Assembly: GCA_016125215.1 (NCBI GenBank)
Contig: WGMF01000010.1
Location: 1-64,000, forward strand
Direction of reading: 5' to 3'
Source: Phycisphaera sp.
Lineage (GTDB): Bacteria; Planctomycetota; Phycisphaerae; Phycisphaerales; Phycisphaeraceae
Length of the DNA: 64,000 nucleotides
In this document: piece after piece, positions 5,869-33,251 of the stretch
Numbering within the stretch: the first letter of the stretch is position 1
Layout: every line of letters begins with the position of its first letter
Position numbers and translations under genes: made by a program
Notes under the pieces: generated by a model
Databases searched by the model: none
What the model was told of the DNA's origin: nothing
Seen by the model: the letters and a program-made list of their open reading frames with translations, nothing else

Positions 5869-6296
5869 GTGATTGACAACCTCTCGGCCCACAAGGTCTA
5901 TGGTGTGCGTGAAGCGATCGAATCGGTCGGGGCACGGGCCGTCTACCTGCCGCTGTATTCGCCGGACCTCAGAGGGCGTGTGAGATGCTTGGGTGTGCCA
6001 CTGGCGGCTTGCCCGCCAGTGCTTAAAACGTACGGCTTTTTCACTGGCGGACAAGCCGCCAGTGGCACCCCAATACACACCATCTTGCTTTCACTCTGGC
6101 TTCTCACACACTTTCTCAACCCGCTCGAGTTGGCATCCGTCAAGCTCAAACATCAGTTGCGTTCAGCCGGCCACCGCGTGATGTTCGCGTTGTGGTCAGA
6201 CGTGTAACGCCTGCTCGACCAGATCACCCCAGGCGACGCCCGGGGGATTCTTTTCTCGCTGCGGATACTCGCTATGGGTGGAGTAGACACGCTCTA
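5869..6296 (+). pseudogene. Decayed IS630-family transposase
   Basis: The frame from 5869 reads [19 protein letters not shown] and then YLPLYSPDL, the second-Asp and YSPDLNP region of IS630/Tc1-mariner transposases. The N-terminal half with the first catalytic Asp is missing. YSPDL is separated from [15 protein letters not shown] by a 147-bp in-frame insertion (5971-6118). After LWSDV an in-frame TAA interrupts the frame, then RLLDQITPGDARG continues. A one-base shift is needed to read the expected end (FSRCGYSLWVE). It is therefore inactive by truncation, insertion, stop codon and frameshift. Confidence 0.8.
5971..6118. repeat. Palindromic MITE-like element inside the IS630 remnant
   Basis: A 147-bp insertion splits the YSPDL/NP codons of the transposase. 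It is flanked by CTCA (5968-5971 and 6115-6118), a possible 4-bp target duplication. Its ends are imperfect inverted repeats (GCGTGTGAGA near the left, TCTCACACAC near the right). Inside are two long arms with the core CCACTGGCGGCTTG and its complement, which would form a cruciform. Its length is a multiple of three, so the host frame stays open. A related core occurs at 27961-28037. Confidence 0.75.
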
Positions 6297-27941: not shown

Positions 27942-27960
27942 GACGTGGGCTCGATCTATG

Positions 27961-28037
27961 TGTGCCACTGGTGGCTTGTCCGCCAGTGAGATCGTTGCAC
28001 ATGGGAACACTGGCGGACGAGCCGCCAGTGGCACACA
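27961..28037. repeat. Palindromic CCACTGGCGGC-type element, copy 2
   Basis: Two hairpin arms (GTGCCACTGGTGGCTTGTCC and CACTGGCGGACGAGCCGCCA) separated by ~20 bp form a cruciform with the same core as the element at 5991-6070. It lies between convergent genes and could also act as a terminator. Confidence 0.75.
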
Positions 28038-30799: not shown

Positions 30800-31294
30800 A
30801 TGCCCGTCTCCGTGTCGACGCAAACTCCCGATGAACCGATGATCCAGCCCCTGTGTGCGGTCTTCAGGCGATTCATCAAGCAACAGGGTCTGAAGTTCAC
30901 AAGCGAACGCGCGAAAATCCTCAACGCGGTGCTCTCGAAAAAAGGCGTCTTCGAGGCGGAGGAACTGCTCTACGAGATGCGTCAGGGCAACGACCGCGTC
31001 AGCAAAGCCACCATCTACCGAACCCTCAAGCACCTGATGGAAGCGGGCATCATCACCGAGGTGCTGCTCGACTCGCGCCAGTCGCACTACGAGCTGACCT
31101 TCGGCAAAAAACCCACCGGCCACCTCGTCTGTGTCGAGACAGGAAAAGTCGTCGAAATCCCCAGCCCCTGGCTCGAACCCGTCCGCGACCGCATCTGCAA
31201 AGAGCACGGTTTCGAGCCGCTGAGCCACCGTTTCGTGATCTACGGATTGTCACCGGAGGCGAGGCGTTCCTCGGATATAAAAAGCAGAGAATGA
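30800..31294 (+). CDS. Fur-family transcriptional regulator, without zinc-site cysteines
   Basis: 164 residues. The winged-helix part is canonical (LKFTSERAKILNAVLSKKGVFEAEELLYEM; RVSKATIYRTLKHLMEAGII). The dimer domain has SHYELTFGKKPTGHLVCVETGKVVEI. The usual HHDH is reduced to PTGH, the CxxC is reduced to one Cys (CVET), and the C-terminal CxxC is absent (GLSPEAR). Structural Zn binding is therefore doubtful. Iron, zinc or peroxide specificity cannot be told. The last ~10 residues approach an intergenic repeat. Confidence 0.88.
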   Translation: MPVSVSTQTPDEPMIQPLCAVFRRFIKQQGLKFTSERAKILNAVLSKKGVFEAEELLYEMRQGNDRVSKATIYRTLKHLMEAGIITEVLLDSRQSHYELTFGKKPTGHLVCVETGKVVEIPSPWLEPVRDRICKEHGFEPLSHRFVIYGLSPEARRSSDIKSRE

Positions 31295-31488: not shown

Positions 31489-32328
31489 TCACTCCCCCTC
31501 ATCCAGGTCCGATTCCTCGATCGCGCGGCTGACCTTGTAGTCGCCGCTGATCCATTTGCCCAGGTCGATAGTACGGCACCGATGGGAACAGAAGGGGAAG
31601 TGGGGGGTGTTGGGCGTGACGGGTTTTTCGCAGATCGGGCAGGACGTTGCGGATGTGCGGGTGCCTGACAGGATGTTAGGGTGTGGAGTAGCGGGCTTGA
31701 TTTGGCTCCCCTCCCCTCTTAGGGGAGGGGCCGGGGGAGGGGTTGTCTTCTTGTTCATTGGGCTTGTGTTATTCGAAACACACCCTCCCCCAACCCCTCC
31801 CTCTGAAGAGGGAGGGGGGCTTGACGACGCCAATCTCCGCGTTGTCAAGGCTTCGATTCGTTTGGCCCAGGCCTTTCCCGCGCGGGCGGTGATGCGGCGG
31901 TGCTGTTCGCCGGCGTGTTCGAGTTCGAGCCAGAGGGTGTCGTCTTCGGAGAGGTCAGCCAAACGATCAGCCCATTCGATCACGACGATGGCGTGGTCGG
32001 TGAACTCGCGCGTGCCCGTCGAGCCGTCCCAGCCGATCGATTCGATCTCGCCCAGGCTTGTCAGGCGGTACGCATCCACATGGACGAGTGTGAGATCGTT
32101 GTTGCGTGTGGGGTATTCGTGAACGAGGACGAATGTCGGGCTGGCGACGAGTTTGGGGTCCACGCCCAGGCCCTGTGCCAGGCCGCGCACGAGTTGCGTT
32201 TTGCCCGCGCCCAGTTCGCCGACGAGCGCGATCACATCGCCGCCGCGCAGGAGTCGGGCAAGCGCTTTGCCGAGGGCCTGCGTCTGTTCGACGCTTTGGG
32301 TTTCAAACTCGAAAGACCTTGCGTTCAC
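31489..32328 (-). CDS. tsaE: TsaE-YacG fusion protein
   Basis: 279 residues joining two normally separate proteins. Residues 1-~155 are TsaE, the ATPase of the t6A37 tRNA-modification complex: Walker A GELGAGKT at 37-44, SPTFVLVHEY, HVDAYRL, and IEWADRL. Residues ~228-279 are a YacG domain (DNA gyrase inhibitor family): zinc ligands CPIC and FCSHRC, then IDLGKWISGDYKV and an acidic tail. The ~55-residue linker is encoded by a palindromic repeat at 31707-31819. GTG 32328 overlaps the thiL stop (GTGA), so it is translationally coupled. Whether the product stays fused or is processed is unknown. Confidence 0.85.
   Translation of the reverse strand: MNARSFEFETQSVEQTQALGKALARLLRGGDVIALVGELGAGKTQLVRGLAQGLGVDPKLVASPTFVLVHEYPTRNNDLTLVHVDAYRLTSLGEIESIGWDGSTGTREFTDHAIVVIEWADRLADLSEDDTLWLELEHAGEQHRRITARAGKAWAKRIEALTTRRLASSSPPPSSEGGVGGGCVSNNTSPMNKKTTPPPAPPLRGEGSQIKPATPHPNILSGTRTSATSCPICEKPVTPNTPHFPFCSHRCRTIDLGKWISGDYKVSRAIEESDLDEGE
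31707..31819. repeat. Palindromic G/C-tract repeat in the tsaE-yacG linker
   Basis: Two hairpins (CCCCTCCCCTCTTAGGGGAG type, and CCCTCCCTCTGAAGAGGGAG type) separated by ~40 bp. It is translated in frame as Pro/Gly/Ser-rich peptide (SSPPPSSEGGVGGG; TTPPPAPPLRGEG). Confidence 0.8.
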
Positions 32329-33251
32329 GTGTGATGCTCCCAGCCGAGTTCGGTCGCGGCAATCTTCTGGCCGTTGGGCAGTTGCACGGTCACGCCCGGT
32401 GGGCCGGGTTGCATCACGCCGATGGTGGTGATCCGCACACCCTCGACGCCCGTGGGAAGAAGCGTGCCGGCGGGGACGGTGAAACACAACTCGTAATCCT
32501 CACCGTCCGCCAGCGCGTGTCGCCACGCCGCTTGACCGTCACGCGCCGCGGCGTGTTTGGCGGCGGTACTGATCGGGAGTTTAGAGGCTTCGATCACCGC
32601 GTGCAGCCCCGACATCTCGGCGATGTGACCCAGGTCCCGTCCCAGCCCGTCGCTCAGGTCGATCAGGCTGTGCAGGGTCTCCATTTTGGCCAGCTTGCGC
32701 GCCAGATCGATACGGGGTTCGAAATCGAGGTGGTGGACGCAGCCGGCCAGGTCTTCCATCGCGCCGCCCAGTTCACCGGTCACACACACCAGGTCGCCCG
32801 CTTTTGCTCCGCTGCGGAGGATCGGCGTCACTCCGCCCGGCTCAGCAAAGAGCGCTACGGATAGCACCATAGGCCCGTCGTGCATCGAGACATCGCCGCC
32901 GATCAGCGGGCAGCCGAAGGCCAGCGAGGTGGCTCGCATGGAATCAAACAGTTGATTAGCTGTGGCTTCGGCCATCGACCGGGGCAGGCACCCCGCCGCG
33001 ACCGCCGCGACCGGCAGCGCCGCCATCGCCGCGACATCCGAGAGGTTGCGCGTGACCACCTTGCGGCCGATTTTTTCAATGGGGGTGTCGGGGGCAAAGT
33101 GGACGCCCTCGACCAACTGGTCCACGGTAACTAACAGTGTGTTATTGCCAAACCGCACCGCGCCCATGTCGTCGCCGGGCGGGATAACCACCGACCCGGG
33201 CAAGCGGGCGTTGGCGTCGTAGACGTGCCTGAGCAGCTCGAACTCGCGCAT
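32325..33251 (-). CDS. thiL: Thiamine-monophosphate kinase
   Basis: 308 residues; phosphorylates thiamine monophosphate to the diphosphate cofactor. The PurM/AIR-synthase fold is clear: PPGDDMGAVRF, LVTVDQLVEGVHF, KVVTRNLSDVAAMAA and LIGGDVSMHDGPMVLSV. LIDLSDGLGRDLGHIA and ADGEDYELCF are further family motifs. Its mRNA is predicted leaderless (TACAAT six bases before ATG 33251). The downstream tsaE-yacG start overlaps its stop. Confidence 0.95.
   Translation of the reverse strand: MREFELLRHVYDANARLPGSVVIPPGDDMGAVRFGNNTLLVTVDQLVEGVHFAPDTPIEKIGRKVVTRNLSDVAAMAALPVAAVAAGCLPRSMAEATANQLFDSMRATSLAFGCPLIGGDVSMHDGPMVLSVALFAEPGGVTPILRSGAKAGDLVCVTGELGGAMEDLAGCVHHLDFEPRIDLARKLAKMETLHSLIDLSDGLGRDLGHIAEMSGLHAVIEASKLPISTAAKHAAARDGQAAWRHALADGEDYELCFTVPAGTLLPTGVEGVRITTIGVMQPGPPGVTVQLPNGQKIAATELGWEHHT

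Follow-up and report, generated by a model that had tools for sequence, protein, structure and literature searches.

A tsaE–yacG gene fusion in a Phycisphaera genome and the palindromic element in its linker

In the planctomycete Phycisphaera sp., a single reading frame on the minus strand encodes a complete TsaE domain (the t6A ATPase) followed by a complete YacG zinc domain, and the linker between the two carries a palindromic repeat that is dispersed over the rest of the genome. From sequence comparison, the best explanation is that the fusion came first and that the mobile palindrome, which now makes its linker longer, was inserted later. The gene lies in a window of 64,000 nucleotides, positions 1 to 64,000 of contig WGMF01000010.1, which belongs to a draft assembly of 58 contigs. 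Both domains are already known, as are palindromes read in frame; the novelty lies in the conservation and history of the domain architecture. A literature search, thin on subscription papers, found nothing on point about a TsaE–YacG fusion or about a link between TsaE and gyrase.

The fused gene and its domains

The tsaE–yacG gene (31489..32328, minus strand) encodes a protein of 279 amino acids, from a GTG start at 32328-32326 to a TGA stop at 31491-31489. The start overlaps the stop codon of thiL within the string GTGA. This upstream gene (32325..33251, minus strand; Pfam AIRS N-terminal domain, 3.5e-20) is part of a gene order conserved in relatives, and on the other side lies a convergent gene for a Fur-family regulator (30800..31294, plus strand). 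That TsaE and YacG share one frame had been proposed in a preliminary description of this DNA, in which the strand went unstated, and Pfam confirms it. The TsaE domain (31894..32298, minus strand; PF02367, E 2.0e-35 to 5.9e-35) also lies above the curated cut-off of NCBIfam TIGR00150, and its Walker A motif, GELGAGKT (32220-32197, minus strand), is intact. The YacG domain (31501..31644, minus strand) passes the Pfam cut-off (PF03884, E 1.3e-16 to 4.1e-16) and aligns with PDB 4tma_I. It has all four zinc cysteines (CPIC...PFCSHRC) together with DLxxW (the DLGKW region), and its matches to the two NCBIfam YacG models are below cut-off.

TsaE (YjeE) is usually a stand-alone protein of about 150 amino acids, and E. 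coli YacG is a free protein of 65 residues. The protein described here shares with the former the complete domain and Walker A motif, but has a YacG domain at its C-terminus; it shares with the latter the four cysteines and the DLGKW region, but is tethered to TsaE. Relatives by sequence in the PDB are the bacterial TsaE structures 6n9a and 6nak and the E. coli YacG structures 1lv3 and 4tma, of which 4tma is the gyrase-bound form. In E. coli, YacG binds GyrB via its zinc domain, with a tryptophan inserted; it blocks DNA binding and appears to protect gyrase against poisons (PMC10886550).

The linker between the domains has about 83 residues, some 40-50 of which are encoded by a two-hairpin GC-tract element. 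An AlphaFold model, built from only 16 sequences, has good confidence for TsaE (residues 1-168) and for YacG from about residue 228, with pLDDT < 50 at residues 179-189 and 202-224; most of the linker is disordered, and the element begins at the end of the TsaE C-terminal helix. The low-complexity linker had been thought to be flexible, and the two folded domains and disordered linker of the model support that idea. Judging from the model, the two domains would act as independent modules.

A dispersed palindromic element

The core of the element (31705..31819, minus strand; translated as PPPSSEGGVGGGCVSNNTSPMNKKTTPPPAPPLRGEGS) is 115 nt long and consists of a palindrome, a GGGGGAGGGTGT arm, a spacer, a complementary arm and another palindrome, forming two hairpins around a variable spacer. 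With a weak outer inverted repeat included, the full element likely extends over 31681..31837 (minus strand), boundaries that were drawn by eye from the flanks of other copies and for which a target duplication is not proven. A 160-nt strand containing the core folds at −86.4 kcal/mol, compared with a shuffled mean of −57.1 (z = −7.6). The GC-tract repeat with two hairpins that had been described earlier is thus real, as both the folding energy and the dispersed copies attest.

About 30 related copies of ~102-150 bp, dispersed over the genome, were found by BLAST and by searches with a pattern that reads the same backwards. When aligned, the copies have two conserved ends and a spacer that varies in both length and sequence, and outside these ends many copies have another, weak inverted repeat (AGAGC..CTGGCGTCTT / AAGCCAGTTGCTCT), seen by eye in the alignment. 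Pattern searches gave 13-33 arm matches per strand in five relatives (G009, G014, G032, G045 and G054). Besides the copy in tsaE–yacG, at least two others lie in frame inside genes unrelated to it, one within a dihydrouridine synthase (Dus) gene (L047) and one in the C-terminal part of an MnmE-like GTPase (L056), a label that rests on the GTPase domain and the layout, with no family-level match. The copies at TruA (L049), GcvT (L044) and a LolA-like protein (L043) stand upstream of the domain and may precede the true start codons. A manual count over 27 copies gave 73 stop-free frames out of 162 (about 45%), and three of the six frames through the copy at this locus are stop-free. Since open frames are common through the element, the open frame here needs no special explanation.

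What kind of element is this? The closest likeness is one of behaviour, to the Rickettsia palindromic elements (RPE), mobile palindromic repeats of about 100-150 bp that are found within unrelated genes and read there in frame (PMC10969869). The element, which has a GC-tract sequence, differs from these in having a planctomycete host and in that only a minority of its ~30 copies are in genes. REPINs and MITEs, too, occur as dispersed copies in which two inverted hairpins enclose a variable spacer. The dispersed inverted hairpin doublet of a REPIN is indeed present, but a cognate RAYT was not found: none of seven Y1-transposase (Y1_Tnp) loci has paired GC-tract arms on its two sides within a search range of ~1.5 kb, which sets the element apart from REPINs and leaves a RAYT origin unsupported.

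A second palindromic doublet, of ~78 bp (GTGCCACTGGCGG...CCGCCAGTGGCAC), is dispersed as well, occurring in the window at 5993-6070 and 27959-28037 and also in L047, L056, L060 and L166. Copies of this doublet lie within the ORFs of Dus and the MnmE-like protein, and in L166 it flanks a Y1-transposase (RAYT-like) match on both sides, a REPIN-like arrangement.

Relatives and the order of events

Both domains were searched for in 61 genomes, which belong to the family and order of the genome studied and all lie outside its genus. Fifty genomes of the order yielded 51 tsaE/yacG pairs: in 28 the two domains share an unbroken frame, and in the other 23 the genes are separate. The GC-tract repeat is absent from 27 of the 28 fused pairs, being carried only by the gene studied, and the linkers of the other 27 range from 10 to 119 residues. 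The gap in separate pairs is mostly tens to about 230 bases, with about 0.7 kb in G032; in G004, which is outside the 51 pairs, the two genes are 13 kb apart. The Walker A/TsaE active site (with G..GxGKT invariant) and all four YacG cysteines are conserved in 22 aligned fused proteins. The order thiL–tsaE–yacG is kept in fused and merely adjacent cases. Nearly all have thiL upstream, and in many relatives, fused and separate alike, yacG is followed by a convergent fur gene. Among the fused relatives from a genome scan are MAGs of Phycisphaeraceae and of other Phycisphaerae (L196, L197, L198, L200, L207 and L209) and one locus labelled Planctomycetaceae (L205). Outside the order, no adjacent tsaE and yacG were seen by eye among the matches listed for a sample of the class, and plasmid records gave only partial matches, to the TsaE region.

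Several other forms of the locus were observed. In four genomes of one genus (G037, G042, G050 and G046; loci L104, L109, L102 and L132, respectively), TsaE is joined to a YacG-like domain by a linker of ~10 residues. This domain retains the tryptophan and the SRP region but, after the loss of three, just one of the four zinc cysteines (TCPTTGKRV..PFIDERAQ..ADLxGWF), and is either a zinc-less YacG remnant or a domain with a new function. The fused gene of G024 (L024) has a methionine (MVSPNTRRSDKTQCPICGK) ahead of the zinc domain, about as far from it as the start of a standalone yacG typically is; this may be the relic start codon of a once-separate yacG. G036 has two different tsaE–yacG pairs (L126 and L010) on two contigs of one assembly, possibly through duplication or a mixed bin.

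Did the repeat make the fusion? In the rpoB tree, the genome studied (G000) has G024 as its sister (SH-aLRT 92), and the G024 gene is a fusion that lacks the repeat. The smallest well-supported clade around the two has seven members, of which five are fused, one is separate and one is undetermined, and Fitch parsimony assigns the fused state from the node of these seven down to G000. Since many relatives, including the sister, are fused without the repeat, and the ancestor is reconstructed as fused, the repeat would be a later passenger. On the other hand, fused and separate states interleave over the tree, with six changes; fusion or fission thus recurs, and a private fusion in the lineage studied is conceivable.

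The preliminary description had the repeat inserted between adjacent genes, removing the stop and thereby creating the fusion, and looked to relatives for separate, repeat-free genes as a check. Separate pairs do exist, often with the genes only tens of bases apart, and in this lineage an inserted repeat with a stop-free frame, as nearly half of the frames through its copies are, could have joined two such neighbours. Moreover, the ORF reading found no in-frame ATG, GTG or TTG between the element and the zinc domain, so the former yacG start, if there was one, has been lost. The 27 other fused loci speak against this origin, however, as do the fused sister, the largely fused clade and the ancestral state under parsimony, and it is improbable that the fusion arose in this way.

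Two further explanations concern the product and the assembly. TsaE could end in the linker, through drop-off or cleavage at the hairpin, which is very stable, with YacG supplied by proteolysis or from an internal start at the ATG at 31756..31758 (minus strand). This codon lies inside the spacer of the element, is the sole in-frame ATG between the two domains, and begins a sequence, MNKK, similar to the N-termini of some standalone YacGs, such as MNDQ or MNER. Inspection of the sequence in front of it revealed no obvious Shine-Dalgarno-like sequence, however, and cleavage, which the preliminary description had raised for a polyprotein, is purely hypothetical and unsupported; because the element is absent from the other fused genes, an internal start within it cannot be a general mechanism. 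Two separate products are accordingly quite improbable at this locus. An error of sequencing or assembly that joined two separate frames is very improbable indeed: GC-rich inverted repeats are error-prone and the assembly is a draft, but both domains are in frame, as expected of a fusion, the sister is fused, and the copy of the element found here shares its layout with other copies.

A tethered protein and what it may do

The explanation that we prefer, and consider quite probable, is that an inherited, order-level tsaE–yacG fusion later received a mobile palindromic element, inserted in frame into its linker, yielding two tethered modules. It draws on the complete domains in one frame, the conserved neighbourhood, the repeat-free fused relatives and the dispersed repeat family. 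The TsaE module would drive the TsaB/TsaD t6A cycle, and the YacG module would reach gyrase B via a disordered tether that tolerates added length. The main effect of the fusion would be to lock in the co-expression and the dosage of a pair of genes that lie side by side throughout the order, and the element would be a tolerated passenger, adding length to the linker and a strong hairpin to the mRNA. Most likely, we infer, the fused protein is a tethered bifunctional product in which each domain has its own job.

A more far-reaching proposal is that the order-wide fusion constitutes a regulatory device. The t6A ATPase would respond to ATP and to the state of tRNA modification, carry a tethered gyrase inhibitor and thereby couple translation capacity to DNA supercoiling, the tether having been altered here by the palindrome. 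We regard this as unlikely.

For palindromic repeats, the element offers a planctomycete case that behaves like those of Rickettsia in being read in frame. For the gene pair, fused, adjacent but separate, and zinc-less versions coexist within one clade. That a t6A ATPase is joined to a gyrase-binding domain in a conserved fusion, and recurrently so, hints at a link between the making of t6A and the control of supercoiling in such bacteria, one that can be put to the test.
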